From Gordonia bronchialis DSM 43247 (GTDB lineage: Bacteria > Actinomycetota > Actinomycetes > Mycobacteriales > Mycobacteriaceae), in the NCBI RefSeq assembly GCF_000024785.1, contig NC_013441.1, positions 496,001 through 560,000 on the forward strand: a DNA stretch of 64,000 bases, in the 5' to 3' direction. Under the pieces are notes generated by a model. It saw only the letters and a program-made list of their open reading frames with translations. It was not told the DNA's origin and searched no databases. This document shows, piece by piece, positions 18,826 through 46,433 of the stretch; within the stretch, counting starts at the first letter, position 1; every line of letters begins with the position of its first letter. The translations under genes were made by a program, and so were the position numbers.

Positions 18826-20097
18826 ATGAGACAAACACGGGGGTTCTTCTCACTACGTCTTCGACGACGGTTGACTGCCGCGGCACTGGTGGGCGCGGCG
18901 GTGGGCGCCGGGCTGACGGCCGCGCCGACTGCCGAGGCGGCGACCGACTTCTACACACCACCGGCGCGATTCGCGACCGAGCCCGGTTCGGTGATCCGCA
19001 GTGAGCCGGTCGGGCTGCTCCTGCAGATCCCGGGCGCGCCCAACCAGTGGCCGGGTACGGCCAAACGGATCATGTACACCTCGCGCTACCAGGACGGGAC
19101 GCCCGCGGCGGTCACCGGGACCGTCGTCGAGCCGACCGTGCCGTGGCGGGGTCGCGGTGTACGGCCGACCGTCGTCGTCGGCCCGGGGACCATCGGCCAG
19201 GGCGATCAGTGAGCGCCGTCGAAGATGATGACCCTGCCCATGTCGGTGGACATCAGTAAGCCCAGCGTCGGCGTCAACTACACCGCGCCGGAGATGTATT
19301 ATCTTCTGGCACATGGGGTCCGGGTCTTCGTCACCGACTACATCGGCATGGGCACGCCCGGCATCCACACCTACGTCAACCGGGCCGAGACCGGCCACGC
19401 GATGCTCGACGGCGGGCGTGCCGCACTGCGTTCGGCGGGTGCTCCGGCCGACGCGCCGGTCGGGTTCGCCGGCTACTCGCAGGGCGGGGGAGCGGCCGCG
19501 TCGGCGGCAGAACTGGCGTCGACCTACGCGCCGGACCTCAACGTGCGCGGCACCTACGCGGGTGCACCGCCGGCCGATCTCATCAAGGTGATCCCGGCCA
19601 TCGACGGGACGACGATCGCCGGTGCGATCGGATTCGCGATCAACGGTCTGACCGCGCGGTATCCGCGGGTGGCCGACATCGTGCGCAAGGAGACCAACCC
19701 GGCGGGTAAGGCTGCGCTGCAGAAGATCTCGCAGCAATGCATCGGTGACATCATCCTGAGCTTCGCCTTCGGCCGGACCCAGAACTGGCCGCGCACCGGG
19801 GAGTCGCTGTCGGCGCTGATCGCCCGCTACCCGGACGTGCAGCGGGTGGTCGACGAGCAGCGGATCGGTCGTCTCAAGCCCAACGCTCCGGTGTTCCTCG
19901 AAGGTGGGCTCGCCGACGACGTGATCCCCTACGGTCAGGTCGCGCAGCTCGCCCGGGACTGGCGGGCCCAGGGCGCCGACGTCCGCTTTGTCACCAATCC
20001 GACACCACCCATCCTCACCAAGACGATCGTGAACCACGTCGTGCCGATGCTCGAGACGTTGCTGCCGGGACTGCAGTTCCTGCTTGCCCGGTTCTGA
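18826..20097 (+). pseudogene. Secreted lipase, interrupted by an in-frame TGA
   Basis: The reading frame encodes a secreted LIP-family lipase of about 423 residues: a signal peptide (MRQTRGFFSLRLRRR, hydrophobic core, TAEAAT), the nucleophile motif GYSQGG, a catalytic-Asp region GGLADDVIPY and a late His (NHVVPM). A TGA at 19210-19212 falls inside GPGTIGQGDQ-APSK, exactly where relatives have Cys (TGC). The two halves are in the same frame, so a single base change accounts for the break. Cys in QQCIGD further on would be its usual disulfide partner. Selenocysteine is a formal possibility but no convincing hairpin follows. Confidence 0.8.
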
Positions 20098-20151
20098 TCC
20101 GGTGCGGCGCAATGGGTGTCGAACCAAGCCCGAATGTGCTTGGGTGATCGG

Positions 20152-21573
20152 GTGAAGGTGAGAAGGATGGGTGCGCGGGGCATGCTGGCGCTCCTCGCGA
20201 GCGTGGCGGTGGCAATGCCGTCGGGGATGACGCAGGCGTCGGCCGATCCGGTGCCCGCCGCACCGGGTCTGGGCCCCGTCGGTACGTCGCTGATGCACGG
20301 GGATCTGTGGTCGAGCGACTCGACACCGTTCGCCGGCCCCGGCCGTGGTGGGCATGTGGTGGCGTCGTCGGTGCCGGGCGGGGCCTGCGCGGCGACCTTC
20401 ATCGGCTCCGATGGTCTGCCGGTGTCGCTGTGCACCAGGTTCATCGGCACCGATCCGCCGGGATTCGCGGTGCCGTCGGTGACCCTCTTCGACCCGCGGA
20501 CCGCCGCCCCGCTCGCCCACCTCGAACTCACCAAGGGCGGCCTGCTCGGCGGCGTCTACGGCTACCTCGACAACCGGGATCGGGTGGTGGTGGCCGACGG
20601 CTCCAATGCGATTCTGCGCGTGGCACATCGACGGACCAGTCGTGGCTGGACGGTCTTCGTGGACAACCGGATCGACGTGTCCGCGCATATCCCGGCCGGC
20701 GACGCGATCACCGGTCTCGCCCCGGATCCGGACGGCCGCATCTGGTTTGCCACCACCAACGGCGTCATCGGAACCGTGAACCGGGCCGGCCGGGTCGCCG
20801 CGATGCACTTGCCGCGCGGTGAGCAGCTCGGCAACGGGCTGTCCATCCGCCGCGGCGGTGCCTCGATCCTCACCACCCATGCGCTCTACGAGATGACGGC
20901 GGCCGCCGACGGCACGCCGCGGGTGATCTGGCGGCGTGCGTACGACCGCGGAAAGGCGCGGCGCCCAGGGCAACTCACCTGGGGATCGGGTACCACGCCG
21001 ACCTACTTCGGCCCGGGTGGTGACGGGTGGGTGGCCATCGTCGACAACGCCGAGCGTCCCCGGCTCCTCGTCTACAACAGCGCATCCGGTGGATTGGTGT
21101 GCAGCACAACCGCATTCGGACGCTCCGGGCAGGGGACCGAGAACTCGCCGATGGCGTGGGGCAACTCGCTGGTCATCCCCAGCACCTACGGATATCAGTA
21201 CCCGCCGATGGCCGTGACCGGCCCGAGTGTGCCGCCCGACGCACCCTTCATCGGAGGCGCCACCCGCATCGACGTCGGTCCGAACGGCTGTAATCGGGTG
21301 TGGGAGAACAACGATCGCATCGCGACCCTTCCTCGGCTCTCACGTGCCGACGGCCTCATCTACGGACTCGGGTACGGCCCGTACCGGCCTGGTCCGCAGC
21401 AACTCGGGCCGGTGTACTTCATCGCCACCGACTTCGCGACGGGACGGCGGGTGGCAACCCGCAAGGTCGGCGACGCTCCCGTCGACGAGCCCCTCGAGCT
21501 GACCGGCACCATCTCTCGCGACGGCGCGATGTGGCAGGCGAGCCTGGGACGGATGTTGAAGATTGCCGGGTAG
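20152..21573 (+). CDS. Secreted beta-propeller-like protein of unknown function
   Basis: The product is about 473 residues with a signal peptide ending ASADP. The mature part has repeated beta-strand blocks resembling NHL/SMP-30 propellers: GGVYGYLDNRDRVVVADGSNAIL, GLAPDPDGRIWFATTNGVIGTVN, and GGDGWVAIVDNAERPRLLVYN (each a blade-like unit). Four Cys may form disulfides. It follows the lipase gene by about 55 bp on the same strand. GTG at 20152 is the chosen start; other GTG and ATG codons nearby (20158, 20167) are possible. Function is unknown; the fold is inferred by eye. Confidence 0.72.
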   Translation: MKVRRMGARGMLALLASVAVAMPSGMTQASADPVPAAPGLGPVGTSLMHGDLWSSDSTPFAGPGRGGHVVASSVPGGACAATFIGSDGLPVSLCTRFIGTDPPGFAVPSVTLFDPRTAAPLAHLELTKGGLLGGVYGYLDNRDRVVVADGSNAILRVAHRRTSRGWTVFVDNRIDVSAHIPAGDAITGLAPDPDGRIWFATTNGVIGTVNRAGRVAAMHLPRGEQLGNGLSIRRGGASILTTHALYEMTAAADGTPRVIWRRAYDRGKARRPGQLTWGSGTTPTYFGPGGDGWVAIVDNAERPRLLVYNSASGGLVCSTTAFGRSGQGTENSPMAWGNSLVIPSTYGYQYPPMAVTGPSVPPDAPFIGGATRIDVGPNGCNRVWENNDRIATLPRLSRADGLIYGLGYGPYRPGPQQLGPVYFIATDFATGRRVATRKVGDAPVDEPLELTGTISRDGAMWQASLGRMLKIAG

Positions 21574-21614
21574 ACGGGGGAGGTCGGGGTTGATCCGCGT
21601 GGAACAATCGTCCT

Positions 21615-22286
21615 ATGAGTGACGTGCCCGCCTCCGGCGCTCCAGAACCCGATCCCGAGCGTGTACCCAGTCAGGCGGAGCTCGACGCCGAGGATCTCGC
21701 CGCGCTGGCCAGGACGTCGAAGGATCGTGATCGCGCCAATCTGTACCCGTCGCGGCAGGATCAGCCCGGCCCGCCGCCGCGTGCGCTGGCCGTCCATGCC
21801 CGTGTCGCCTGGTGGGGTGCCGCGGTCTGTGGGCTGATCTGCGTGGTCTACGGCTTTCTCAATCTCGGGATGATCTCCGATCTGCTGCGCCAGCGGCTGC
21901 TGGACGGCGTCGCGTCCGACCGCGTCAACGCTGCCCCCGAGAATCAGGTGAACTCGCTCGCCGGCTTCTTTCCGCCGTTCATGCTGGTCATGATCATCGT
22001 GTTCCTGGCCATCGAGTATCCGCTACTGGTGGCCGCGGCGAGCCGGCACAGCCGCAACAGTCGCAACTTCTTCCTGACCACGGTGATCGTCCACATGCTG
22101 TGCGTCCCGATCGGCGTCGACCTGCTGTTCCGGTATCCGCAGGTGTGGTCGTCGATGGTAGTCATCTCCTGGCTGATGTTCGCGCTGCTGGCCGTCGCGG
22201 GTCTGTGCAGTCTGCGCCGCGTCGTCGACCGTTGGCTGCCGGAGTCGTCGCGGATGCGCCCGAGCCGGATGTTCCGCGGCCGCTGA
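21615..22286 (+). CDS. Four-TM membrane protein of unknown function
   Basis: The product is 223 residues. The first 60 residues are soluble and charged, with an acidic stretch (SQAELDAEDLAALARTSKD). Four hydrophobic segments follow at about residues 65-85, 118-140, 150-170 and 178-200, and the tail is basic (RMRPSRMFRGR). I recognise no family. Its stop codon lies in the first unit of an 18-bp tandem repeat. Confidence 0.7.
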   Translation: MSDVPASGAPEPDPERVPSQAELDAEDLAALARTSKDRDRANLYPSRQDQPGPPPRALAVHARVAWWGAAVCGLICVVYGFLNLGMISDLLRQRLLDGVASDRVNAAPENQVNSLAGFFPPFMLVMIIVFLAIEYPLLVAAASRHSRNSRNFFLTTVIVHMLCVPIGVDLLFRYPQVWSSMVVISWLMFALLAVAGLCSLRRVVDRWLPESSRMRPSRMFRGR

Positions 22287-22371
22287 GACCTACTACAACG
22301 CTGAGACCTACTACAACGCTGAGACCTACAACAACGCTGAGACCTACGACAACGCTGAGACCTACGACAAC
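22282..22371. repeat. Five tandem copies of an 18-bp repeat
   Basis: The unit is gctgagacctactacaac, with substitutions only at the tac/aac/gac position in later copies. The five units fill exactly 90 bp. The array begins on the stop codon of the membrane protein and ends 47 bp before the furA operator. It has no coding role in a conserved frame. Confidence 0.9.
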
Positions 22372-22418
22372 TCGGCCGGATGCCGGGCGAGGGTGGACTG
22401 AGTTTGGATAGCCTCCAG

Positions 22419-22439
22419 AAACTGGACATATTCCAGTTT
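22419..22439. promoter_or_regulatory. FurA-type operator
   Basis: AAACTGGA and TCCAGTTT form a perfect inverted repeat around CATAT. It ends 18 bp upstream of the furA ATG in an AT-rich stretch. Mycobacterial FurA represses its own gene at an AT-rich site directly upstream, so autoregulation is likely. Confidence 0.65.
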
Positions 22440-22457
22440 AGGTTCTATAGTGGGGTC

Positions 22458-22901
22458 ATGCTCGATCGTAAGGAACTCCATCGACAACTCCGGGAGGCCG
22501 GCCTGCGGGTCACCGCGCCCCGGGTTGCCGTGCTGGAGATCCTGGACGAGCATCCCCATTCGACCGCCGACTTCGTCGCGGCCGGTGTTCGCGAGAACCT
22601 CGGCGGCGTGTCCACGCAGACGGTGTACGACGTGCTGCGTTCGTGCACGGAGCGTGGGCTGCTCCGTCGGATCGAACCCGCGGGATCGGCCGTGCGGTAC
22701 GAGACCCGCACCGACGACAATCATCACCATCTGATCTGTCGGACGTGTGGGGAGATCGTCGATATCGACTGCGTCGACGGCAGGTCGCCCTGCCTGACGC
22801 CCGATCGCGATCACGGGTATCGGGTCGACGAGGCCGAGGTGATCTTCTGGGGTGAATGCGCCGCATGTCAGCAGGTCTCGGCCGGCGGCGACCCGCGATG
22901 A
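22458..22901 (+). CDS. furA: Fur-family regulator, FurA-like
   Basis: The product is 147 residues. The N-terminal winged helix (LREAGLRVTAPRVAVLEILD and VSTQTVYDVLRSCTERGLL) is followed by the dimerisation and metal domain with DDNHHHLICRTCGEIVDID and a second CxxC near the end (CAAC). These fit the iron- or peroxide-sensing FurA of actinobacteria. FurA usually precedes katG. Here katG is absent and an Ohr-type peroxidase and Dps follow instead. The ATG at 22458 is immediately downstream of the palindromic operator. Confidence 0.88.
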   Translation: MLDRKELHRQLREAGLRVTAPRVAVLEILDEHPHSTADFVAAGVRENLGGVSTQTVYDVLRSCTERGLLRRIEPAGSAVRYETRTDDNHHHLICRTCGEIVDIDCVDGRSPCLTPDRDHGYRVDEAEVIFWGECAACQQVSAGGDPR

Positions 22902-23029
22902 CATCGGATCGTATGACAGCGTTGTGGTTTCAGGTACAGCCCGCCTGGCAGCAGGACCGTGTCGGGTCGAGATGTCGAAAGATGTTTCCCCGCACGGCCT
23001 TTGCTGTTCACCCGCATGGCGCACACGGT

Positions 23030-23043
23030 CCGAATATATTCGG
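23030..23043. promoter_or_regulatory. Perfect 14-bp palindrome upstream of ohr
   Basis: CCGAATATATTCGG is a perfect palindrome in an AT-rich patch 84 bp upstream of the ohr start. It differs from the known OhrR box (TACAATT-AATTGTA). It may be a second FurA or other redox-regulator site, or part of the promoter. Confidence 0.4.
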
Positions 23044-23127
23044 GTTCGGGGGAATTCGACGACCCTGACGGTCGTTGAACCGTAACGGTGTCCGAGCATC
23101 TCGACCCATCAGAGAGGAACCCACCAC

Positions 23128-27852: not shown

Positions 27853-30401
27853 GTGAGCCGAGTGGGCCCGGATGCGGATGTCTCGTCACCGGGTGCCGTC
27901 GCCGAGCGGCCGTCTTTCGATGAGTTCGCCCCGCCCGCACATGGTCGCATTGCCGACCTGCTCGTCGCCGCCACCACCCGCACCGGTGCCGGGCACGGTT
28001 CCGTGATCCTGGTCAGTGCGCCGTCGGGAACCGGGAAGACCGCTTACCTCGAGCAGTGGTCACGGGTGCTGGAGCGTCAGGCGTCGGTGGTCACCTGGGA
28101 CCGAGGCGCCCCCAGTCGTGACTTCTGGACTCGCATGCCCGACGAGTGGTTCGTGTCCGACGATCCCGACGTGCCCGGCCCGTCACCCCGGCGGGTCCTG
28201 ATCGTCGATGACGCGCACCAGATCTCGGGCCCCGACGATGTGTCGGCCGTCGTCGAGTTGCTCGATCGGATGCCCGCACACACTGCGATCGTCTTCTGCG
28301 CCCGGTACGACCCGCCGCTGCCCTGGCATCGGTACGCCCGAGATCACCGGTTCACCCGGATTGGCGAGACAGACCTTGCCCTGCGGGCCGACGAGATCGC
28401 CGACTCGCTGGGCGAATCCGCCGTCGTTCTGAATCACGTTCAGGCCGAACGGATTCGCGAGCTCACCAGCGGTTGGCTCATACTGGTGTCCGCAGTCGCC
28501 GACAGACTTGCCGGCCGGCGAGACGTCGATGACTGCATCGACGGGCTCGCGTCGTCGCCGCGTCCGCCGACAGATGATCTGATCGGTTCCCTCATCGCTG
28601 ATCTCCCCGAACACCTACGTGCGCTGGCCTGCCGGACCGCCGTGGTCCAGTCGTTCGACCGCGACCTCGCCATCCACCTCGCCGGCACCGGGCACGACGT
28701 CACCGACATCGACACAGCGCTGTGGGACCTGGCCGCACAAAGATTTCCGGTCATCATCGCCGGGTATCGCGAATCCCGCACCTACTACACGTACCCGGGA
28801 CTGGTCCGGGCGTACCTGCAGGCCGAACTCCGGCGCAGTGGGATCTCGCCGGACAACGTATTGCGTTCTGCGGCAATGTGGTCGATGCATCGGCGCAGAA
28901 GTGTGGACGCTCTCTCACTAGCCCTTCAGATGTCAGACCCGGAGGAATTGTCGACCGTACTGGTGACCAGCGGGATACGGATGGTGATCGCCGGCGACGT
29001 CGCCGGCTTCGAGGTGCTGCTCAACCGATGGTGCCGGGTGGCCCCGGGGTCGGCCGAGCCCACCATCATGCGAGCGCTGGTGGCGGCCGAACGTGGCGAC
29101 CTGGCGGCGTCGAGCATGCACCTGAACGAGGTCGACCGGGCGGCGGTGTCCGGCGCCGATCTGACCTGCCTCCTCGGGGCGCTTCGGCTCGTCGCCGACG
29201 CCCGACACCGACCGGGCGGGAATGATCGCCCGATCGGATGGCTCGACCCGGTCGGGGTTCAGGACGAGGTGCGGGCGTTTGCACTCATGACCGCAGGCTC
29301 GGTGCACATCAGTCGTGGGGACCTGTCCTGGGCCAGAAGAGTCTGGGTCGCGCCGATGCCATCGCCACGGCGGCATCTCTCGACCTGTTGCGCGTCCGGA
29401 TCGGCGCTCATCGCGCGGCCGCAGCAGGTCGGCGTGGGGACCTGGCGTGCATGCGCAGCCGGGCACGCACGGCCATCGAGAGCGCGCGTGCGTGCGGCCG
29501 GCAGGCGGACAACTACGTCGCGCAGTGTGCGGCGATGGAGGCGATGGGGCAGTACCTCGCCGGGGAACCGCCCGCTTCCGAACCGATGATCCGGCCGGCG
29601 TCGGAAACCACGGCGGTCACCGGTCCCCGTGCCCCGCTCCTCATGCTGATCGCCGGATTCGCGGGGGCCGAGGACCGATATGACACGGCGGTACATGCCT
29701 GTCGAGCACTGACCGAGATGATCCGGACGGAGGCCTATCCGTATCCCGCGGTGGTCCTTCTGCCGCGAGTGGCCTACATGTGCGCCGCGGTCGGCGGGAC
29801 GGAAGGGATCACGGGACTCGTTGCCGCGACCGAGAGGTCATACGGCCCCGGGCCGGAGACGGCCATCGCGACCGCGGTGGCAATGGTTGCCAACTCGAGG
29901 TTCGATGCGGCACGCAAGACTGTCACGCCGATTCTCGACGCTGCCGACGCCGCTCATCCCTCCACCGCGATGTCGGCGTGGGCCATGTACGCCTACACCT
30001 CGGCGCAGCTGAGCGACTCATACGCAACCCACCGTGGCCTGCGCCGGGCGTTGGCGGCCGGTGCGCCGTCGGGAATGATCGCACCGCTTCTCGAAGGTGG
30101 CGAGGTGATCGCCGACGAACTGGCACGTCATGTGGGGACATTCGGGCACCTCGACGCGCTGGCCGCCAAGGCGATGCGGGCCATCCGCGCGCAAGCCCTT
30201 CCTGAGCAGTTCCACCTGACACCATCCGAACGCAGGGTGCTCGACTTCTTGCCGTCGGGGTACACGGCCGACCAGATCGCGGGCATGCTGTCGGTGTCGG
30301 TCAACACCGTCAAGACCCACAGCCGGAGTATCTACCGCAAACTCCAGGTGTCGACCCGCCGGGACGCCGTGATGGTGGCGCGTCGAGCCGGATTGCTGTG
30401 A
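27853..30401 (+). pseudogene. STAND ATPase LuxR-family regulator, split by a frameshift
   Basis: The first part (27853 to about 29334) has an AAA/STAND-type ATPase with Walker A in SAPSGTGKTAYLEQW and Walker B in RRVLIVDDAHQI, then a helical sensor region. The second part (about 29334-30401) continues a TPR-like region and ends in a LuxR helix-turn-helix (LTPSERRVLDFLPSGYTADQ, then VNTVKTHSRSIYRKL). The parts are in different frames; one missing base in the ggcc stretch near 29331-29335 would rejoin them as DLSWAQKSLGRADA. The full MalT/LAL-like regulator would be about 850 residues. The target is unknown; neighbours are transport genes. Confidence 0.78.
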
Positions 30402-30670: not shown

Positions 30671-31696
30671 TCATGGTGCGTCGTCGGGGGCGTCTGTGGC
30701 ACCACCCAGGCCGGGTGATTGCTGCGGCCGACGCCGTAGCAGCGCAGGCACTCCCAGCCCGATCACCGCTGCCACCGCCAGGCCGAACAATGTCTCGCCA
30801 ATCCGTTCGTCGACGCGGCCGGCGGCCGAGTCCGTCGAGTAACTCAGCATCGTGATCACCAGGAACGTGGTGAAGGTCGGCAGGATGTACCAGCGGCTGC
30901 CACGGGTACCGGCGGCCGCGACGATGGCCAGGCCGATGGCGACGGCGAAGGCGGCGGGCGGTGCTCCGAGCTCCACCAGCAGTGCGGCGGCCACGGCTCC
31001 CACGCTGACCGACACGAAGCGGCCCAGGGTGCGCCACTTCTGCAGCCCGGCATCCGGACGCATGACGAGAAGCGCTGCGGCGCAAGCCCACCCGACATGA
31101 TCGAAGTGCAGCGCAAAGCCAACCGATGAGGTGATCACCCCGATTACCCCGAGGAGGATTCCGTAGCCGAGGCCCGGCATCGCGGCCGATTGGCCGGTAG
31201 CGGGTGTCGTCTCGGCGATCCACGCCGGCGGAATGACGATCGCCACGACAAAGGTCGTCACCGATCCCGCGACGAACAGCAGGGCCAGGACGAGCCCGCT
31301 ACCGAACCCGTCCTCGCTGAACCCGACGCCCACCAGGGCGGGGGCGATGACGACGAGAAGCATTGCCAGCCGCGGTCTGTCGATGCGACTCGCCAGCCAG
31401 GTGGCGCCGACCGGGAGCAGGAAGATCGTGGCGACCGCGGCCACCGGCCACGGTGCGACGGTGGCCCCGACGAGGATCGGCACCCCCAGCACCAGTCCGG
31501 CGATCAGGATGATGACCCGTCTGCGACGTTCCCGGGGGACTCCGGCGATCACGGCCGGGATGATCCCCACCGCCAGCGCGGCGCCCTTCTGGACATCGCC
31601 ACCGGCCGCGACCACCACCGCCGGGATGACCGCGATCGCCGCGGTCAGGGCCGGCAACCAGCGCCAGGCGATCATCGGAGCCGTCGGAGAACTCAT
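30671..31696 (-). CDS. FUSC-like membrane protein
   Basis: The product is about 341 residues with about ten hydrophobic segments in two blocks, resembling aromatic-acid exporter/FUSC proteins. It includes WRWLPALTAAIAVIPAVVVA at the start and GAVAAALLVELGAPPAAFAV and WYILPTFTTFLVITMLSYST in the second block. The C-terminal tail is basic then acidic. The ATG at 31696 is preferred because the first membrane segment begins soon after. The substrate is unknown. It is divergent from the APC transporter gene. Confidence 0.7.
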   Translation of the reverse strand: MSSPTAPMIAWRWLPALTAAIAVIPAVVVAAGGDVQKGAALAVGIIPAVIAGVPRERRRRVIILIAGLVLGVPILVGATVAPWPVAAVATIFLLPVGATWLASRIDRPRLAMLLVVIAPALVGVGFSEDGFGSGLVLALLFVAGSVTTFVVAIVIPPAWIAETTPATGQSAAMPGLGYGILLGVIGVITSSVGFALHFDHVGWACAAALLVMRPDAGLQKWRTLGRFVSVSVGAVAAALLVELGAPPAAFAVAIGLAIVAAAGTRGSRWYILPTFTTFLVITMLSYSTDSAAGRVDERIGETLFGLAVAAVIGLGVPALLRRRPQQSPGLGGATDAPDDAP

Positions 31697-31859
31697 ACCC
31701 CGAACCTTAGTGGTCTGCACCGAATCTCCGGAGCGGACGATGTGATGGCGCCCCTCCGCCGGCGGCAGCCTCTCGGTTCACTCCCTGCGGGTGATGTTCT
31801 CCCGCAGGAGCAATGGGACGCTCCGACATGGGTTTGCCCACCTCTCTAGGAGGACGAGT

Positions 31860-33330
31860 ATGGCCACCGAATCTGACGCCGGCGACGAGCAGGCGCGTAC
31901 GACTGCGATCGGGAAAAGGGCCGTACCGGCGACCAGCTACATCACCTGGACCGCGCTGGCCCTGATGACCGTGTCCTCGGTGGCGAGCCTACGGCCCGCG
32001 CCGACGATGGCAGTCTAGGGCCTGGCATGCGTGTTCCTCTACGTGTTACCGGCCATCGTGTTCCTCGTCCCGACCGCCCTGGTCTCCGCCGAGTTGGCAT
32101 CCGGCTGGTCCGGCGGCGTGTATCGCTGGGTGACAGAAGGAATTTCGCCCAACATGGGCTTTGCCGCGGCCTGGCATCAGTTCGCGATGACCATCTTCTA
32201 CTATCCGACGCTGCTGTCGTTTGTGGCGAGCACGCCGGCGTATGTGATAAATCCGGGGCTGGCCAGTAGTGTCGTCTTCACCGCGGTCGTGATCATCGTC
32301 GTCTATTGGTCCGGGGTGTTGCTCGCTCTGCGGGGTGGTATCGGTGTGATCGCCAAACTGGCGTCGAGTGGTGTTCTAGTGGGCACTCTCATCCCGGGGG
32401 CTTTGCTGGTTCTGCTGGGCGTCGTCTATCTGTTGCAGGGCAATCCGTCCGCGGCCCCGATGACCGGCGGTCACCTGCTGCCGGCCTGGACCGGCATCGC
32501 CAGCATCGTGCTGATCGTCAGCAACTTCGGCGCGTGCTCCGGTATGGAGATGAACGCGGTGCACGTGAACGAGTTGAAGGAACCAGGCAAGCAGTTCCCG
32601 CGCGCGATGTTCCTCGCGGTGATCCTGGTGCTGGTGATCCTGATCCTCCCGCCGCTGGCCATCTCTTGGGTGGTGCCGTCGGATCAGATCAGTCTGACCG
32701 CCGGCGTGATGCAGGCATTCGAGGTGGTCTTCGGCCACTTCGGATTGCAGTGGCTCGTGCCGATCGTCGGGCTGGCCATCGTGATCGCCTCGCTGGCCGG
32801 ATTCATGACCTGGCTGTCGGGGCCGTCGAAGAGCTTGCTCCTGGTGGCTCAGGTCGGTGGGTACCTGCCCCCGTACTTCCAGAAGACCAACAAAGTCGGT
32901 GTGCAGCAGAACATCCTGGTGGTCCAGGGCTGGGTGACCACGGCGCTGGCCCTGCTGTTTGCGTTGGTGCCCGCGGTGTCCAACGCCTACTGGATCTTCA
33001 TGACCATCACCACATCGGTGTACCTGTTGGTCTACCTGTGGCTGTTCGTCGCGGCCTACCGGTTGCGCAAGATCGCGCCCGACCATCCCCGCGGCTTACC
33101 GTGCGCCGGCGCTGCCGTTGTTGTGCGGCGTCGGACTCGTCGCCTCGATAGCGGCGATCGCGATCAGCTTTGTGCCGCCGTCACAATTCGGTGGGGGCAG
33201 TCCGTGGGTGTTCGTCGGGATCGTCGGCGGCGGGATCCTGTTACTCGGGCTCATCATTCCGGGACTGCTGATCTGGTTGCGAAAGCCGAGTTGGCAAACG
33301 GTCGTCGCGACCCCCGAGGAGAAGTCATGA
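31860..33330 (+). pseudogene. APC-family amino-acid transporter (GadC-like), two lesions
   Basis: The frame begins at ATG 31860 behind AGGAGG. It encodes a member of the APC superfamily, of the glutamate/GABA-antiporter-like branch (VPTALVSAELASGWSGGVYR, WVTEGISPNMGFAAAWHQF). A TAG at 32016-32018 interrupts SSVASLRPAPTMAV-GLACVFLY in frame, where a Tyr codon is expected. Near 33087-33090 an extra C in a cccc run shifts the frame; the true C-terminus continues as AYRAPALPLLCGVGLVAS to the TGA at 33328-33330. Two independent lesions argue for real loss. It overlaps the next gene by 4 bases. Confidence 0.8.
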
Positions 33331-33731
33331 GCCACAAGGCGATTTACTGGACCGTCGGCGCAGTGCTGGTAGTGCTGCTGGTGGTCATGCTGGTCAGCTA
33401 CGACCACCATCGCGACAACGCCGAGGCCCGCGCCAAGGCCGATCAACTCATCAGCACGTTCCACGATCACGGGCTGGCCACCCCGATTCCGGCCGACCAG
33501 ATCGCGCAACGTCTCGGCGACGACGGTGGGACGGTGTGTGCGGCGGCGGGCAGCGAGACTCAACTCGGATACCTCAAAACCCAGATCGGCGTCGGCGGCG
33601 AGTTCTACGTACGGCCGATCATATTGCCCGAGAACGTATTCGAGGGACTTCGTTTGTTCGTCGAGGTCTATTGTCCGGAGAATCTGCCGACAGTGGAAGA
33701 CTTCATCGCTGACCAGCACTACGCGAAATGA
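33327..33731 (+). CDS. Single-TM anchored small protein, unknown function
   Basis: The product is 134 residues with one N-terminal membrane segment (WTVGAVLVVLLVVMLVS, residues 8-25) and a soluble domain of about 105 residues (AEARAKADQLISTFHDHGL, DDGGTVCAAAG, GEFYVRPIILPENV). It overlaps the APC gene by ATGA and the next MFS gene by ATGA, a tight three-gene operon. No family is recognised. The soluble domain could face outside the membrane given the positively charged tail near the start. It may act with the transporter. Confidence 0.7.
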   Translation: MSHKAIYWTVGAVLVVLLVVMLVSYDHHRDNAEARAKADQLISTFHDHGLATPIPADQIAQRLGDDGGTVCAAAGSETQLGYLKTQIGVGGEFYVRPIILPENVFEGLRLFVEVYCPENLPTVEDFIADQHYAK

Positions 33732-35119
33732 CCGGTACCGACGGGGAGGTGCCGTCGCGGCGACGATGGATATCGCTGGCCGCCACCTGCACCGCCGCCG
33801 GCCTCGTGTGGCTCGCCTTTGCCGACTTCGGGGTCGCCGCTTTGGCCCCCGGCGTGGGGGTGTTGATCGCCGGGCGCGGATTGATGGGGATCGGCGCCGC
33901 ACTCATCCTGCCCGCGACACTTGCGCTGATCCCGGTCCAGTTCTCCGGGGCCGCACAGCTCACCGCCTTCGGGATCTGGCAGGCGGTCGCCTGGGGTGGC
34001 CAGGCGCTGGCACCCGCCATCGGCGGGGTGATCACCGACGGTCCGGGCTGGCGATGGCTGTTCTGGATCAATCTGCCGCTGGCAGTCGCCGCGGTGGCCG
34101 TGATCCGTTCCGTCACACCGGAAACCAGTGACGACACGGTCGATCGCCGTATCGACTGGCTGGGACTGGCGACCATCGGCCTCGCGATCTTCGCGCTGCT
34201 CTACGCACTCACCGATGGACCCACCGCGGGATGGGCAAGCCCATTGGTGCTCGGGTTGCTGGTGGCCGCCGTCGTCCTGGCGCTCGTCTGGGTCGTCGTC
34301 GAACGCAGGGTGAGCAGTCCGTTGGTGAATCTGTCGTTGTTCCGGCTGCGGCCCTACGACGGTGCGCTGATTGCGAACCTCACCATGAACCTCGTGTATG
34401 CGGGCCTCAGCTACCTGCTCGTGCTGTGGCTGCAGAATGCCCGCGGCTACAGCGCGGTCACGGCCGGACTGCTGATGCTGCCCGCGATCCTCGGCATCTT
34501 CGTGCTGATACCGATGGGTGGACGGCTCGAGAGCCGGGTCGGTGGCCGAATACCCGTCATCGTCGGCCTGGTGGTGCTCGGCGCTGGTCTGGCCGTCCTG
34601 ACGCCCCTACAGTCAGACAGTTCGATGTGGCTGATCGTGGTGTCGCTCATCGTCATCGGCGCCGGACTGGGGCTGCTCTCCACACCGGTGTCCAACACCG
34701 CGGTCGGTGAGGTCCCGGCCGCGTTGTCGGGTACCGCGGCGGGCGTGTTCAAGATGTCGAGCATGGTGGGCGGTGCGCTGGGCGTCGCCATCCTCACCGC
34801 ACTGACGCGTGGTCTCACCCTGGCCGATTCCGGCCACGCCGTGCAGCATTCGGGACTGACCGATGCCGAGGTGGATCAGGCGCACGCGGCCCTGGTCAAC
34901 TCGTCCTCCTACGACGACGCGCTGTCGCGGTTGCCCGCCGAACTGCAGGACAAGGTGACCGCAGCAGTGGTCGACGCGTTCTCGCGCGGCCTCGGAGTGG
35001 CCATGCTCTCCGCGGCCGCGCTCACACTCGTTGCGGGCGCAATAGTGTGGGCGGTATGGCCGCATCGCGATCGGCAGCAGGCGCATGATGAGACGGTCGA
35101 ATCCAGAACCGACGGCTGA
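33728..35119 (+). CDS. MFS transporter, DHA2-like, lacking the first membrane segments
   Basis: The product is 463 residues and about 12 membrane segments. It opens with MTGTDGEVPSRRRWISLAAT, then goes directly to APGVGVLIAGRGLMGIGAAL, which in DHA2 pumps belongs to segments 3-4. The TM1 motif and the loop after TM2 are missing, while the rest (PAIGGVITDGPGWRWLFWIN, TAVGEVPAALSGTAAGVF) is normal. The start overlaps the upstream stop, so it seems native. An internal deletion of roughly 40-80 codons is likely, and function is doubtful. Confidence 0.7.
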   Translation: MTGTDGEVPSRRRWISLAATCTAAGLVWLAFADFGVAALAPGVGVLIAGRGLMGIGAALILPATLALIPVQFSGAAQLTAFGIWQAVAWGGQALAPAIGGVITDGPGWRWLFWINLPLAVAAVAVIRSVTPETSDDTVDRRIDWLGLATIGLAIFALLYALTDGPTAGWASPLVLGLLVAAVVLALVWVVVERRVSSPLVNLSLFRLRPYDGALIANLTMNLVYAGLSYLLVLWLQNARGYSAVTAGLLMLPAILGIFVLIPMGGRLESRVGGRIPVIVGLVVLGAGLAVLTPLQSDSSMWLIVVSLIVIGAGLGLLSTPVSNTAVGEVPAALSGTAAGVFKMSSMVGGALGVAILTALTRGLTLADSGHAVQHSGLTDAEVDQAHAALVNSSSYDDALSRLPAELQDKVTAAVVDAFSRGLGVAMLSAAALTLVAGAIVWAVWPHRDRQQAHDETVESRTDG

Positions 35120-39358: not shown

Positions 39359-39420
39359 ACGATCGCGCAGGCCCCGATGGTGTGCTGCTGATCAAGGCGA
39401 TACGAGTTCAAGGAGTGCAA

Positions 39421-40182
39421 GTGGCGGTGTCAGGCGACGAGTCGGCCGACGACGTGACCGCGGAAATCCCACCCGTCGAGGATGAGGTGGCTCTGCTGGT
39501 CGCCGACGGGATCGGCGTGCGAGCGACATGGGGCCACATTTACGGTCCCACCGACTTTCGCATCCTGCCGGGTGGGTTGACCGTGCTCGCCGGCTCCGGC
39601 GGGCGCGGACGAACCGCCCTGTTGTTGACGTTGGCCGGGCGGATGAAGCCCAGCTCGGGTCACCTGTGGGCATTCGGGCGGGTCAACGACGCCCATCACC
39701 TCTTTCGGCAGGCGGCGATCGCCGACATCGACGAGGTCGACGGCATCGTGCAGGCAATCAAGGTACGAGACGTCATCACCGAGCAGATCCGTTGGAGCGC
39801 ACCCTGGTACAAGTGGGTGCGCCAGGCGCGGCAGGCCGATCTCGAGCGTGTGTGTGCACCCGTGTTCGGTGATCTCGCGCTGCCGTCGATGGATGCCTTC
39901 GTGGAGGAACTGCCCGAGTTGACCGCGGCGTTGTTGCGCATCGCGGTGGCCAATGTTCGTCGACCGCCACTACTGGTGGTCGGCGGTGTGGACCGGTTGA
40001 CGCGGATCGAATCGGCGCGAACCCTCACCAGCCGGCTGGTCGCGCTCGGTCGCGAGCAGACGGTGATCACTGCGGACGTCAACGGGGCATACCCGGGACT
40101 TGGTGTGCGCGAGGTGATCTCGGTGGACAACCTCACCGATGACGAGTTCGTGATGCTGGAACAACAAGAACGGATCTCCTGA
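39421..40182 (+). CDS. ABC transporter ATP-binding protein with degenerate motifs
   Basis: The product is 253 residues. Its P-loop reads GSGGRGRTALL, so the usual Lys is Arg. The signature region reads ELPELTAALLRIAVANV rather than LSGGQ, and the Walker B region reads PPLLVVGGVDRL. The start is GTG 39421 behind AAGGAG. It precedes the YhgE/Pip-like permease by one base. Similar degenerate ATPases occur beside such permeases in other actinobacteria as I recall, so this may be a family trait. Whether it hydrolyses ATP is doubtful. Confidence 0.75.
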   Translation: MAVSGDESADDVTAEIPPVEDEVALLVADGIGVRATWGHIYGPTDFRILPGGLTVLAGSGGRGRTALLLTLAGRMKPSSGHLWAFGRVNDAHHLFRQAAIADIDEVDGIVQAIKVRDVITEQIRWSAPWYKWVRQARQADLERVCAPVFGDLALPSMDAFVEELPELTAALLRIAVANVRRPPLLVVGGVDRLTRIESARTLTSRLVALGREQTVITADVNGAYPGLGVREVISVDNLTDDEFVMLEQQERIS

Positions 40183-40183
40183 C

Positions 40184-42148
40184 ATGCTTGCTGCGTTCTC
40201 GCCGGGCAGCGATTTCAAACGCTACTATCGCGGCCGCATGCCGCGGCTGGCATTGATCGTGATCATCCTGATGCCGCTGATGTACGGCGCCCTGTACCTG
40301 TGGGCGTTCTGGAACCCGTTCGACGCGGTCAACAAGATTCCGGTGGCACTGGTCAACGTCGACCGCGGAGCAACGGTACAGGGCACACCTCTCAATGCGG
40401 GGAAGCAGGTTGCCGACGGGCTGATCGCATCCGATCAACTCGATCTGCACGTCGTCTCCGAGCAAGAGGCCAAAGACGGTGTGGAGCATGGCAAGTACTA
40501 CTTCTCGATCACGCTGCCCGAGGACTTCAGTGCCGATATCGCCTCGCCGGCCGGCGGAGACGCGCGCTCGGCACAACTGATCTTCACCTACAACGACGCC
40601 AACAACTATCTGTCCACGGTGATGGGGCAGGACGCCGCCCAACAGGTGGTGAACAAGGTGGGCGCCCAGGTCGGTGCCACCACCTTCGACATCGTCATCA
40701 ACGACGTCACCGGATTGATGCCCAAACTTCAAGAGGCACAACAAGGCGTCAACAAGCTGAACACCGGCATGCAGCAGGCCAACACCGGCGCCGGTGAACT
40801 CGCGACGAATCTGGTGACGGCGAAGAACGGTGCGGCGGAGCTGTCCGGCGGACTCGGTCAACTCGACTCGGCAGTGGTGCGAGCGACGGACCCGGTTCTG
40901 AACGCATTGAACGGCGCGAACACCGGGGGGCTGTCAGCGGTCGAACTCAACGCGCTCGTCTAACGCCTCGGTTCGGGTACCACGACGGTGTCGGATCAGC
41001 TTTCCGCAGTGGCAAATTCGCAGTCGCAGGCCAGTCGGACGGTCGATGGCGTCGTCGCAGCGCTGCGGGCGAGTCCAGACCCCAACATGCGTCGACTGGC
41101 GGATCTGCTGGCGCCGGTGCAATCGGTGCTGACCACCCAGGGCCTGGGCCCGGATGCCACCAATCAGCTCGCCCAACTCCGCAGCGATTCACAAGTTCTG
41201 TCCACACAACTGGGCAACCCCGGCAGTCCACTTCGAATGGGGTTGGGGCTCTTGCAGAGTGGCACTCTGCGGTCCGATGTCCTGGCTGTACGAGGTGCGG
41301 CAGGAGAGCTCAGTTCGGGTGCCTCGCAGTTGAGCAACGGTCTCGTCGAGCTGAGCAACGGGGCCGATCAACTGTCGTCGGGGACCAAGCAACTCGCCGC
41401 GGGAACATCGGAACTGGCCGGCCAGGTGGATGCAGGAGTGAAAGCGGTACCGCACTGGTCGCAAGAGCAGCGCACCGCGCTGGCCAACACCCTCTCCCAG
41501 CCGGTGGCCCTGCAGGAGAACACCCTCAACGAGGCCAAGACCTTCGGGACGGGATTCACCCCGTTCTTCTTCGGCCTGGCGCTGTTCGTGGGCAGCATCA
41601 TCGCGTGGATGCTGTTCACCCCGTTGCAATCCCGGCCGATCGCACAAGGCCTCGGGTCACTGCGGGCCGTCCTCGCGTCCTTTGCCCCGACGTTCTTCGT
41701 CGGGTTCCTGCAGGCGACGATCCTGTACCTGGTCGTCGTGTTCGCGGTAGGCCTGCGGCCGACGCATCCCATTGGCACCTTTGCGTTCATGCTGCTCATG
41801 GTCGCGGTGTTCCTGGCGATGATCCAGATGTTCAACGCGGTGTTCGGGCCGGCCGTCGGCCGGGTGGTCACCCTGGCGTTCCTGATGGTGATGCTGACGT
41901 CGGCCGGCGGCATCTATCCGGTGCCGACGACCACCAAACCATTCCAGTACATCCACTGGGTCGACCCGATGACGTACACGGTCAACGGGCTTCGGCAGCT
42001 GACCGTGGGCGGTGTCGATCACCGGCTCTGGATAGCGGTCGGTGTCCTGACGGCGCTGACGGCGGTCTTCCTGGCAATCTCGACGTGGGCGGCACACCGC
42101 AACCGGCAGTACAACATGGACCGCCTCTATCCGCCGGTCGAGGTCTGA
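40184..42148 (+). pseudogene. YhgE/Pip-family ABC-2 permease, in-frame TAA
   Basis: The combined frame encodes about 654 residues: an N-terminal membrane segment (LALIVIILMPLMYGALYLW), a long extracytoplasmic coiled-coil-like region (LQEAQQGVNKLNTGMQQAN; LSSGASQLSNGLVELSNGA), then five membrane segments of the ABC-2 type. A TAA at 40961-40963 lies in VELNALV-RLGSGTTT; both sides are in the same frame and composition. One substitution from a sense codon explains it. Pip-like proteins serve as phage receptors or export systems. The upstream part alone would be a single-segment anchored fragment. Confidence 0.8.
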
Positions 42149-42235
42149 GATGACCATGGACCGGTAGACAATTGAGCTCGACCCGACCCCCCGACGTGAA
42201 CCAACCGCACTGCCCTCCGAAGGAGACCAACGATC

Positions 42236-43635
42236 ATGGCCAACCACACCAACGCCCGTACCACAACCAATATCGGTGACACGCTGTCGCTCAACCCCGT
42301 GTTCGTCCGCCCCGGGGAGGCGAGCTCCCCAAGTTCACCATCCCGGACGGCATGAGCCTGCCTGAGACGGCGTATCAGATCGTGCACGACGAGGCCATGC
42401 TCGACGGCAACGCGCGACTCAACCTGGCCACATTCGTCTCCACCTGGATGGACGCGGAGGCGAACAAGCTGTACGCCGAGACCTACGACAAGAACATGAT
42501 CGACAAGGACGAGTACCCGCAGACCGCGGCGATCGAGGACCGCTGCTGGAAGATCATCGCCGATCTGTGGAACGCGCCGGACGTGGACAACGCCATCGGT
42601 ACGTCCACCATCGGCTCGTCGGAGGCCGCGATGCTGGGTGGCCTGGCACTGAAGCGTCACTGGCAGGCCCGGCGTCGCGCGGAGGGGAAGTCGACCGAGA
42701 AGCCGAACCTCGTCCTGTCGACGGCGGTCCAGGTCTGCTGGGAGAAGTTCCTCAACTACTTCGAGGTCGAGCCACGCTGGGTGCCGGTCTCCGAGGAGCA
42801 CTTCGTCTTCGACGGTCACGATCTCGAGAATTACGTCGACGAGAACACCATCGGCGTCGTGGCCATCATGGGCGTCACCTACAACGGTCTCTACGAGCCG
42901 GTGAAGGAGATCTCCGCCAAGCTCGACGAGATCCAGGAGAAGACCGGACTCGACGTCAAGATCCACGTCGACGGTGCGTCGGGGGCCATGATCGCTCCGT
43001 TCTGCCAGCCCGACCTCGAATGGGATTTCCGGGTGCCGCGGGTGGTGTCGATCAACACCTCGGGACACAAGTACGGCCTCGTCTATCCGGGCCTGGGCTG
43101 GATCATCTGGCGCGACACCGACGCACTGCCGGAGAGCATGGTGTTCCACTGCAGCTATCTCGGTGGCGACATGCCCACACTCGCACTGAACTTCTCGCGG
43201 CCGGGCGCACAGGTTCTGCTCCAGTACTATCAGTTCCTCCGGCTCGGCCGGGAGGGCTATCGACAGGTCCAGCAGGGCTCTCTCGACGTCGCGCAGTACC
43301 TGTCCGCCGCGATCGCCGAAATCGGGCCGTTCGAACTCGTCAGCCAGGGTGACACCACCCCGGTCTTCGCGTGGCGGCTCAAGGCGGGCCACACCGACAA
43401 GTGGACGCTGTTCGATCTGTCCGACCGGCTTCGCATGAAGGGGTGGCTGGTACCCGCGTACCCGATGGCCGACGGTCTCGCCGACATGACGTTGCAGCGC
43501 ATCGTCGTCCGGGCGGGTCTGAGCCGCGACCTCGCCGACGCGCTGCTGCGGGATATCGAGGGCGAAGTCGACTTCCTGGACCAGCTGTCGGGACCGCTGC
43601 CGCGGGAACTCGAAGGATCGCATTTCCACCACTGA
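42236..43635 (+). pseudogene. gadB: Glutamate decarboxylase, frameshifted in the N-terminus
   Basis: GadB converts glutamate to GABA and CO2, consuming a proton. The PLP-enzyme core is clear: LNLATFVSTWMDAEANKL, GSSEAAMLGGLALKR, the PLP Lys in INTSGHKYGLVYPGLGW, and YLGGDMPTLALNFSRPG. Translation from ATG 42236 (behind AAGGAG) reaches PVFVRPGEA and then loses frame; adding one G near 42320-42322 restores GEAELPKFTIPDGMSLP. An ATG at 42352 could start a protein lacking about 40 residues, so partial function cannot be excluded. The end EGSHFHH matches the family. Confidence 0.82.
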
Positions 43636-43704
43636 TCACGGTGCCGTTGCGATGACGACATTCTCGAGGATGCATTCCTCGTCACCCGGACAGGTGGTAC
43701 TCGG

Positions 43705-44451
43705 ATGACCGAAGAGGCGCTCCCCGCCGGGGCGGCGTCGGGGCCGTTCTTCGACCTGCCGCCCGGTGTGGACAGGCGGCTGCTGACACCCACCCTGACC
43801 AAGCAGTGCGTGGGCTTCATGATCGGTTCGTCCCTGTTCGCGCTGGGTTCCGCGCCCGGGTTCGGGCATGTGGTCGGCGCATCGGTGGTCAACCTGTGCT
43901 TCTTCGTGGGCGCGTGGTTCTTCACCGGCGCCGCACTCATCCAGCTCCTGCGCAGCGGCCGGGTCACGGTTCCCGTCTCCTACCCGCCCGGAACGATGGT
44001 GCGTGCGGAATGGCTCGCGGCCGCGACCCAGTTCTTCGGAACTCTGCTGTTCAACGTCAGCACGGGCGCCGCGCTGCAGGCCCATACGATCGCGGCGCAG
44101 AAGCACCTGGTGTGGACGCCGAATGCGGAGGGCTCAGTCGCCTTCCTCATCAGCGGATTCTTTGCCCTGGTCGCCTATTCCCACACCGGCGGCGGCTGGG
44201 CACCCCGACGTGCGGACTGGTGGTCGGGACAGGTGAACATGCTGGGCTGCGTCGCCTTCGGCGTGTCCGCGGTCGGGGCCTACATCACCCCGAACGGGGT
44301 GACGGTGGATGCCGTACTTGCCAACGTGGGTACATTCGTCGGCGCTGTGTGCTTCTTCATCTCGTCATTGTTGGTATTGCCGGCATTGTCTCGAAACCCT
44401 GGAAACGGGACCGGATTTCAAGCGACAATGGCGTGCGAACCCGACGAATAG
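43705..44451 (+). CDS. Six-TM membrane protein of unknown function
   Basis: The product is 248 residues with about six hydrophobic segments, paired around polar loops (CVGFMIGSSLFALGSAPGFG; LCFFVGAWFFTGAALIQLLR; WLAAATQFFGTLLFNVS; NVGTFVGAVCFFISSLLVL). The repeated N-x-G-S/T...F motif resembles YrhK-type membrane domains, which is tentative. It follows gadB by 69 bp on the same strand, so a role in acid or membrane stress is possible. The ATG at 43705 gives a short soluble N-terminus. Confidence 0.65.
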   Translation: MTEEALPAGAASGPFFDLPPGVDRRLLTPTLTKQCVGFMIGSSLFALGSAPGFGHVVGASVVNLCFFVGAWFFTGAALIQLLRSGRVTVPVSYPPGTMVRAEWLAAATQFFGTLLFNVSTGAALQAHTIAAQKHLVWTPNAEGSVAFLISGFFALVAYSHTGGGWAPRRADWWSGQVNMLGCVAFGVSAVGAYITPNGVTVDAVLANVGTFVGAVCFFISSLLVLPALSRNPGNGTGFQATMACEPDE

Positions 44452-44483
44452 GTAAGCAAAGTCCTTTGCGGGTGGCGAAACAG

Positions 44484-44502
44484 GGTGTGACATGATCACA
44501 CC
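44484..44502. promoter_or_regulatory. Palindromic site before the AraC-type gene
   Basis: GGTGTGA and TCACACC form a perfect inverted repeat around CATGA. The TGTGA...TCACA core resembles Crp/GlxR boxes, but the spacer is five rather than six bases. It is 32 bp upstream of the AraC-type start, so it may be an autoregulatory or Crp site. Confidence 0.4.
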
Positions 44503-44533
44503 AGAATGGGGGCGCCGAAGCAGAGGAGCAGGC

Positions 44534-45301
44534 GTGAACCAGTCTCGTCCCGGTCTTTCCCCCGACGTCCTCGAGTACTGGCGGCGCGCCATCGGTGTCG
44601 ACCATCCGCTGGGGTCGAATCCGTCTCGGCAGATCCGGTTTCGCGGGGCAGATGCCCTCGACGGGCACATTGCTTTGCTCCACATCGAGCCCGAGGACCC
44701 GGAGGGTTTCGAGCAGATTGCCTATTGGGTGCCGCTGACACACATCCAGGCGTGCTGCATCTTGCAGACCCCCACCCGCACGCGACGAACCCCGGACCTC
44801 ATCCGGGAGTTTCCGTCGAATGATCTGATCATCGCGGTACATTCCATGGGAAGTGTCACCGGACGCGTCAACGGCTTCGAGTATGCCTGCCGGCCCGGCC
44901 AATTGACGGTCACCGACAATCGGTTGCCCTACGACGTGACCGGTCACGGGGTGACCGACCCGACCGGGATCTGGGTTCCCGCGGCACTCTTGGGCGCAGA
45001 TATCGCGGCGGGTGCCACGGTGCCACCGATACCCCGCGATACGCCCCTCACCCGAGCGTGTGCGGCGCTCGTGGTGGGACTGGCGAAGGACGTGGCCGCG
45101 CGTGGCGACGAGATCGACGACGACACCGAGTTGGCCGCGGTCGAGGTAGGCAGCGGGCGGCAGACAGCGGCGAGCCCGCGGCCTCGCTCAACCCATGAAC
45201 GGCGTCGCCGTGCTCGGCAGCGGTCGTTGCGTCATGACCGGTACGTCACACGGTGCACAGCGGCGAATAGTCGCTGCGCCCACCGGTTGTCGGTGAGATG
45301 A
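44534..45301 (+). pseudogene. AraC-family regulator lacking its DNA-binding domain
   Basis: The N-terminal effector-binding region is recognisable (IRFRGADALDGHIALLHIEP; GFEYACRPGQLTVTDNRLPY; PRDTPLTRACAALVVGLAKD). It stops resembling the family after DDDTELAAVEV near 45147, just where full-length homologues enter the helix-turn-helix domain. The remaining residues are Arg-rich and look out of frame, running into the 3' end of the convergent lipocalin gene. The likely cause is a deletion that removed the last half of the gene. The start GTG at 44534 follows GAGGAG. Confidence 0.65.
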
Positions 45302-45869
45302 GGAAGGTGCAGGAGTTGTAGCCGACGCGTTCGATCTCACCGCGCAGACGGCGCAACTCGGATGTCGGGACCACCTTGTCGCGGGACAGGAGGAAGCCCG
45401 ACGATCGCGTCGGATCACCGACGATCGCGTAGCGGTAGGGGGCCGTGGGTGTCCTGCCCTCCTGTAGCCAGGCGACGATGTAGTTCGGCCGGCCGCCCGG
45501 ATCAATACTGTTGGGGGTGAACGGGAATCGGACACTCAGCTGCGCGTTGGTCGTGGTGTCGACGACGGTGGCCTTGCCCTTCACCCCGTCGATCTGGCCG
45601 AAGGGTGAGGTGCACTTGTTGTTCACTCCGATCGTCGTCTTGTTGATGAGCGTGTAGGTGGCGTTGGTGTCGCGTGCACAACGAATCCCGAAGAACGACG
45701 GTACGGTCGCGAGTTGCCACCAGGTGCCCAGGTAGCGCTGCACATCCAGAGAGGGCACGGGTTTCAGCGGAGCGGCGTTGGCGGCCGAGGTGCCGGCCAG
45801 GAGACCGAGTCCGGTCAGGACCGCGACGAACGCGGCGATGATCGATCGGGTGAGGGGCGCTCGCAACAT
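45246..45869 (-). CDS. Secreted lipocalin-like protein
   Basis: The product is 207 residues with a signal peptide (IIAAFVAVLTGLGLLAGTSA, cut near ANAAP). The mature domain has the lipocalin motif QRYLGTWWQLATVPSFFG, later YIVAWLQEGRTPTAPYRYAI, and Blc-like features such as SGFLLSRDKVVP. Lipocalins bind hydrophobic ligands. The ATG at 45869 is preceded by GAAGGAATC. Three Cys lie in the mature domain, two of which (in GIRCARD and NSCTF) may form a disulfide. Confidence 0.8.
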   Translation of the reverse strand: MLRAPLTRSIIAAFVAVLTGLGLLAGTSAANAAPLKPVPSLDVQRYLGTWWQLATVPSFFGIRCARDTNATYTLINKTTIGVNNKCTSPFGQIDGVKGKATVVDTTTNAQLSVRFPFTPNSIDPGGRPNYIVAWLQEGRTPTAPYRYAIVGDPTRSSGFLLSRDKVVPTSELRRLRGEIERVGYNSCTFLISPTTGGRSDYSPLCTV

Positions 45870-45959
45870 GTGATTCCTTCGCGGTCGGATCGTGCGCTGG
45901 ATGGGTCCGGTCAGCGATTCGATGCGAGGGGATCAGCGGATGGGTGAGCCGCCACAACA

Positions 45960-45994
45960 GCGGGCGGGACACGGTCCTGCCGTGCCCCGCCCGC
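45960..45994 (-). terminator. Hairpin after the membrane-protein gene
   Basis: Arms of 15 bp (gcgggcgggacacgg at 45960-45974 and 45980-45994) with one G:T-type mismatch and a 5-base loop. It directly follows the stop of the membrane protein on the minus strand. Confidence 0.6.
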
Positions 45995-46010
45995 CGTCTG
46001 GTTCGTCGGC

Positions 46011-46433
46011 TCAGCCGTTGTAGACGTCGTTGGGCTTCCAGGTCGCGACCGCCCAGATGACGATCAGATCGAGCACGATGATCAGGATCGCCCACGCCGG
46101 GTAGTACGGCAGCCACAGCAACTGCGCGATGATCGACAACGACGCGATGATGATCGCCGAGACCCGTGCCCAGTCGGCGCCGACCGCGAGTCCACCCGCG
46201 ATGAGGATCGCGATGATGCCGAGGATGAGGTGGACCCAGCCCCAGGTGGTCAGGTCGAACTCGAACACATAGTTGGGGGTCCGCACGAACACCTCGTCAT
46301 TCGCGAGCGCGGAAATGCCCTGGAACACGGCCACCAGACCTGCGACGAACAGCAGGGCGGCCGCGACGATGGAAATACCGAAGGCGAAACCGCTCTTGGC
46401 GGACGAATTCGCTTACTGATCAGTGTTGCTCAT
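46011..46433 (-). pseudogene. Small membrane protein, TAA in the seventh codon
   Basis: Reading from ATG 46433 gives MSNTDQ, then TAA (46413-46415), then the in-frame continuation ANSSAKSGFAFGISIVAAAL and four membrane segments (LLFVAGLVAVFQGISAL; WVHLILGIIAILIAGGLAV; SAIIIASLSIIAQLLWL; AILIIVLDLIVIWAVATW). The whole frame is about 140 codons and resembles the DUF7144-type membrane proteins of actinobacteria. A new start inside (GTG at 46334) would lose the first membrane segment. A single substitution explains the stop. Confidence 0.72.

Follow-up and report, generated by a model that had tools for sequence, protein, structure and literature searches.

Glutamate decarboxylase (GadB) and the glutamate/gamma-aminobutyric acid (GABA) antiporter GadC form a glutamate-dependent acid-resistance pair; the family names used here come from profile models. 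Gordonia bronchialis is an opportunistic pathogen. We have analyzed a 27.6-kb block of its chromosome in which eight genes, gadB and gadC among them, have disrupted reading frames. The window, that is, the whole stretch of 64,000 nucleotides, is G000:C1:496001-560000 of the G. bronchialis genome (G000; two contigs totalling 5,290,012 bases, of which the larger has 5,208,602), and coordinates are window positions unless a contig is named. According to the sections of the published account considered here, the finished genome of strain 3410T (DSM 43247) has 5,290,012 bp including an 81,410-bp plasmid, 4,944 protein genes and 264 reported pseudogenes, and was obtained from 8x Sanger and 23x 454 coverage with a stated error rate of <1 in 100,000 (PMC3035257). 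Broken genes are therefore common in this genome. A search of the literature collection used here returned no paper on selenoproteins or on glutamate decarboxylase in G. bronchialis. Our analysis indicates that the eight genes very probably carry real loss-of-function mutations, accumulated stepwise in a mosaic locus.

Disrupted reading frames

Reading frames were read directly and then set against those of G006, the nearest relative compared (93% identity in gadB), or of other Gordonia genomes. The disrupted genes are as follows.

18778..20097, forward strand: secretory lipase (PF03583), interrupted at 19210 by an in-frame TGA where relatives have an invariant cysteine
27853..30401, forward strand: LuxR/MalT-type regulator, with a frame change near 29333
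31860..33330, forward strand: GadC-family glutamate/GABA antiporter (APC; gadC), with a TAG stop at 32016 and, near 33088-33095, a frame change of one base
33728..35119, forward strand: DHA2-like MFS transporter, with about 60 residues of the N-terminal half missing
40184..42148, forward strand: YhgE/Pip-type ABC-2 permease, with TAA at 40961
42242..43635, forward strand: glutamate decarboxylase, gadB, with a frame change at about 42325
44492..45301, forward strand: AraC-type regulator, of which the sensor part alone matches and the C-terminal DNA-binding part is missing
46011..46433, reverse strand: DUF7144 membrane protein, with TAA at 46413-46415, codon 7

An earlier sequence-only reading had listed seven disabled genes and an incomplete MFS gene, and direct reading finds all of them disrupted at or very near the places it gave. 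The four stops (lipase TGA at 19210, APC TAG at 32016, ABC permease TAA at 40961 and TAA at 46413 in what it called a small membrane protein) and the frameshifts of LuxR (about 29333) and APC (about 33088) stand where it put them, and that of gadB, put at about 42321, lies at about 42325. The truncated AraC gene covers residues 3-207 of a 346-aa G006 homologue, at 55% identity. The MFS protein had been thought to lack its N-terminus; the proteins of G057, G059 and G034 are about 60 residues longer, and the shortfall lies in the N-terminal half.

The comparison with relatives, proposed beforehand, shows that the same genes are open elsewhere. In G006 the counterparts of the lipase and the ABC permease are open frames of 442 aa and 654 aa, and gadB and DUF7144 are open as well; LuxR, gadC and MFS have no G006 counterpart at this locus. 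Both sides of the lesion look coding in three genes: the excess of changes at third codon positions is 0.53 and 0.68 on the two sides of the lipase TGA, 0.73 and 0.64 around the permease TAA, and is likewise present on both sides of the gadB lesion. This separates the three lesions from the many false stops in start extensions. All 11 relatives read have an open DUF7144 frame where the stop lies here, and in 10 of them an in-frame ATG precedes that position by 3 to 14 codons. A shorter GTG-initiated frame, from 46334, remains open in G. bronchialis.

Identification of the gad genes rests on profile matches. The gadB piece beginning at 42352 scores 622 bits against TIGR01788 (cut-off 380.4), and an ATG at 42352 would give a 427-aa GadB covering profile positions 24-430 of 431. 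The APC piece scores 519.5 bits against NF053662, the best of seven models, over profile positions 32-387; this is under the cut-off of 640, as expected since the lesions remove both ends of the piece. Full-length gadB without stops is present in 56 of 58 other Gordonia genomes, often at other chromosomal sites, and a close full-length homologue was not found in the remaining two (G041 and G046). No second close copy of gadB or gadC was found in G000. The permease is full-length at >=60% identity in 26 of the 58 genomes, split over two frames in G041 and reduced to a remnant with a stop in G001. gadC is found in 7 of 59 Gordonia genomes and is open in G052, G031, G057, G059 and G053. In G030 the gadC homologue (C101:12949-13661) is also broken, lying in two frames with a TAG.

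Density of lesions

From 264 pseudogenes in 5.29 Mb, 1.4 would be expected per 27.6 kb; eight are observed (Poisson probability 1e-4, or about 0.02 after multiplying by 192 windows). As a direct comparison, G006 genes were placed on 266 kb of G000 around the window, as well as on two control stretches elsewhere, each about 100 kb long. Clear lesions were counted in 4 of 18 genes of the block, 2 of 107 in its surroundings and 4 of 118 in the controls. The block thus differs from the surroundings and controls together, 4/18 against 6/225 (Fisher p=0.003), or p=0.007 when two doubtful outside rows are included. The p value is 0.02-0.04 without DUF7144, and 0.001 for an automatic set of 13 genes of which 4 are broken. 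The earlier impression of a cluster of broken genes is thus borne out.

The block set consists of those 13 automatic genes and five intact ones, filtered earlier for overlap and added by hand (DUF2252, M20, lipocalin, Dps and the ABC ATPase); the outside set received no such additions. DUF7144 was retained as a lesion despite having six codons ahead of its stop, since start codons in the relatives precede the stop position; without it the block has 3 of 18. From the surroundings count we dropped, after inspection, antisense shadow open reading frames (ORFs) at 7096, 13173, 138214, 138228 and 148989, and also stops after just a few codons (-30841, 49763, 122843) or at the very end (58075). Stops and frames with an upstream third-position fraction of about 0.4 or lower were dropped as called start extensions, and missing N-termini (e.g. 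21642, 36606) were not scored. In the control regions 4952194, at the extreme C-terminus, was dropped, and 3475501 and 4947178 are the doubtful rows, left out of the six outside lesions and included in the eight.

The flanking genes had been described as intact. Outside the block, 24 window rows have a G006 counterpart; setting aside 7096, an antisense shadow ORF, 23 remain, and no lesion flanked on both sides by coding support was seen in them. Beyond the block, all six clear lesions are one-base frame changes relative to G006 (G000:C1 near 468907, 619796, 4945107, 4958147, 4988946 and 3476868), which either belong to the 264 pseudogenes reported or are sequencing slips. Nonsense changes make up 4 of 7 point lesions in the block and none of these six (p=0.07). 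Conversely, in G006 a single gene, with three stops, is clearly broken among 123 compared on the 252-kb contig, and there are three doubtful cases among 121 genes in the control regions. At G000:C1:622668-623894 an open 408-aa frame has a decayed counterpart with three stops in G006 (C35).

Origin and age of the lesions

Intact copies of two of the broken genes are known from database entries that display no source. A 654-aa ABC permease has 1 difference in 645 residues from the two pieces found here, and a 489-aa GadC has 2 differences in 407 residues. If base errors had produced four stops in 19.6 kb of coding sequence, about 17 missense differences would be predicted in these two genes. Three are seen (P=4e-5 for 3 or fewer), so base errors do not explain the stops; that these did not look like homopolymer errors had already been remarked. 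The earlier suggestion that several indels lie at runs of C or G holds for the one-base change in gadC, which adjoins a run of C. It fails for gadB, where the lesion is a four-base length difference from G006 outside any homopolymer. Most of the lesions are probably real, to judge from these comparisons, and the gadC one-base change is the least safe of them.

The damage had been called recent as a whole, and this is only partly so. Since near-identical intact copies exist, the ABC permease and GadC broke recently, each after its lineage had separated from that of the intact copy. A 581-aa protein entered under the name Gordonia bronchialis carries the LuxR frameshift too, with 116 of 119 residues of the out-of-frame tail in common. 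The damage therefore did not arise all at once. The regulator has an open frame in P0242, about 80-83% identical, as well as in a distant G059 homologue, and we place its frame change before the split from the P0241 lineage. No significant acceleration since the split from G006 was found in the four testable broken genes (lipase, ABC permease, gadB and DUF7144). Their pieces have 72 changes on the G000 branch against 77 on the G006 branch, as compared with 197 and 268 for 14 intact neighbours (p=0.22; the PBP row is left out).

Gene content of the locus

At this locus, the stretches covered in 12 relatives mostly contain the lipase, a propeller protein, 21615, OsmC, Dps, DUF2252, the M20 peptidase, acyl-CoA dehydrogenase, lipocalin and DUF7144; the lipase and DUF7144 each occur in the stretches read for 11 of the 12. 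Two modules are patchy among relatives. One, between DUF2252 and M20 (27.8-35.1 kb), contains luxR, FUSC, gadC, a small protein and MFS. The other (38.0-45.2 kb), consisting of amidohydrolase, ABC, gadB and AraC genes, is found at this locus in G006 only, with gadB alone in G009, while ABC and gadB occur together at other loci in G002, G007, G004 and G010. The apparently undamaged members of these modules referred to here, and the tRNA at the right edge, are:

30671..31720, reverse strand: FUSC-type membrane protein, apparently intact, part of the patchy first module
33310..33731, forward strand: small protein of about 134 aa between gadC and MFS, open frame
39382..40182, forward strand: ABC ATPase partnering the broken permease, open frame
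46634..46708, forward strand: tRNA-Pro, at the right edge

The small protein is also encoded in G031, G057, G053, G059 and G052, all of which carry gadC. Because G006 is without the 27.8-35.1 kb module, we considered whether G. bronchialis gained it by insertion. This idea was rejected: G052 and G059 hold most of the module with the gene order unchanged, which makes loss elsewhere as likely as insertion here. For this comparison the blastn overview was used, that by tblastx being too permissive. The 40 window ORFs scanned contained no integrase or transposase domain, and no second copy of the tRNA-Pro 3' end was found in the window at up to 6 mismatches in 28 bases; an island at a tRNA would be expected to have both an integrase and such an att repeat. 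The GC content of the block is about 1.5 to 2 points below that of the flanks. Judged from its sequence, the block is better described as a mosaic locus than as an island.

The in-frame TGA of the lipase gene

Where the lipase has its TGA, G006 and all of 20 further relatives examined have a cysteine; TGA occurs at this codon in 0 of these 21. The genome does possess selenocysteine (Sec) machinery: G000:C1:3794001-3814000 encodes tRNA-Sec, SelA, SelB and an AIRS-family (SelD-like) protein. Next to them stands a molybdopterin oxidoreductase gene, presumably for a formate dehydrogenase; its in-frame TGA is at position 4380 of that segment. The oxidoreductase TGA is followed 18 nt downstream by a clear hairpin of 7 bp resembling a selenocysteine insertion sequence (SECIS). 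By contrast, the lipase TGA has a weak 5-bp hairpin at 32 nt. The loose rule that this hairpin satisfies is also satisfied by 47% of coding positions (2844/6070), and the lipase folds do not stand out from shuffled sequences (-1.05 to +0.87 standard deviations). With this loose rule and the oxidoreductase as the single positive comparison, no convincing SECIS was found for the lipase.

Two other ideas were rejected. A stop recurring in lipase genes across the genus is not seen: of 9 other genomes with stops in the best match, 7 have the stop upstream of the start Met17 and 2 have none in the local alignment. Reassignment of a stop codon is discounted, as TGA, TAG and TAA all occur.

Interpretation

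We consider it very probable that the eight lesions are genuine losses of function accumulated one after another. Selection on glutamate decarboxylation with GABA antiport, on a membrane exporter and on a secreted lipase would have relaxed in the G. bronchialis lineage, and because of this relaxation further losses would be free. The LuxR-type regulator would have been lost early, the other genes following by single events. That gadB and gadC are both hit suggests loss of one pathway.

Several points weigh against this reading. The window was chosen for its clustered lesions, so the p values given above are post hoc. DUF7144 has six codons before the stop, too few for a codon-position test. 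Individual lesions may yet prove to be errors, the one-base frame change in gadC most of all, and the intact permease and GadC used in the missense comparison come from those entries of unstated origin. Finally, gadB and DUF7144 may be translated from the later starts at 42352 and 46334 and be functional.

The sequence-only reading had offered two explanations, real decay of a dispensable island or a low-quality assembly; the decay is supported. The low-quality assembly, in which thin coverage at this point of the hybrid Sanger/454 assembly would have made the stops and indels, is improbable and, at least for the stops, not supported, given the missense count. The LuxR frame is in common with another entry, the gadB change involves four bases, whole segments are absent from MFS and AraC, and the coverage stated in the sections considered (PMC3035257) was 8x Sanger in addition to 23x 454. 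On the other hand 454 data were indeed used (same sections of PMC3035257), and one-base changes, such as slips would give, make up all six clear lesions elsewhere, besides the frame change of gadC next to its C run. A slightly better alternative, if still an unlikely one, is adaptive loss, with inactivation of the glutamate decarboxylase (GAD) pathway and of surface or export functions being favoured in the host lung or in laboratory culture and nonsense mutations exceeding neutral drift. With three missense differences in gadC and the ABC permease, drift predicts 0.7 nonsense mutations in 19.6 kb; four are seen (P=0.006). The breakage of gadC in G030 and the nonsense share (4/7 against 0/6, p=0.07) point the same way. 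Against it, the region was selected for its stops, the missense counts come from two genes compared with copies without a displayed source, no phenotype is known and the LuxR lesion is older than the others. We give an equally small chance to an adaptive, stepwise shutdown that started at the LuxR-type regulator and is now seen in mid-course, G030 being at least one further Gordonia that lost gadC on its own.

The island half of the earlier explanation fares less well than the decay. Two modules are indeed patchy between species and the block is lower in GC than its flanks. However, most genes between the modules are at the same locus in relatives, genes found throughout the genus also carry lesions (the lipase and DUF7144, each in 11 of 12 relatives, and gadB, in 56 of 58 genomes), and neither an integrase or transposase in the 40 scanned ORFs nor an att repeat in the window was found. 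A horizontally acquired, dispensable island decaying as a unit therefore seems slightly less credible even than assembly error. Least credible of all, by a wide distance, is that part of the lesions reflects recoding, with the lipase TGA read as selenocysteine. The invariant cysteine and the encoded Sec machinery speak for it; the weak hairpin, passing a loose rule and folding like shuffles, and the lack of TGA in any of the 21 relatives speak against it. Moreover, this cysteine is one of two in the G006 protein after Met17 and probably makes a disulfide, and the remaining stops in the block are TAA and TAG. The lipase TGA is far more likely a nonsense mutation.

If, as is likely, the broken frames are real, the type strain is without an intact gadB, a gene that nearly all Gordonia keep. 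The locus would then offer a small natural series of ordered losses, with LuxR gone earlier and the ABC permease and gadC more lately, and isolates could be used to date it. The block resembles local gene decay of an ordinary sort, of some specialist interest.

Comparison with known systems

The stops, frameshifts and truncations described here are of like kind to the pseudogenes published for 3410T; in contrast, the sections of that account considered here give the number only and mention no cluster or gad lesion (PMC3035257). Like known selenoproteins made with SelB and a SECIS, the lipase has a TGA at an otherwise invariant cysteine in a genome encoding the machinery; unlike them, it is without a SECIS comparable to that of the genome's own oxidoreductase. 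As in GadB/GadC acid-resistance systems, the gadB piece matches the TIGR01788 model and the APC piece comes closest to NF053662, below its cut-off, but here both genes are broken, they lie about 9 kb apart, and gadC is rare in the genus.

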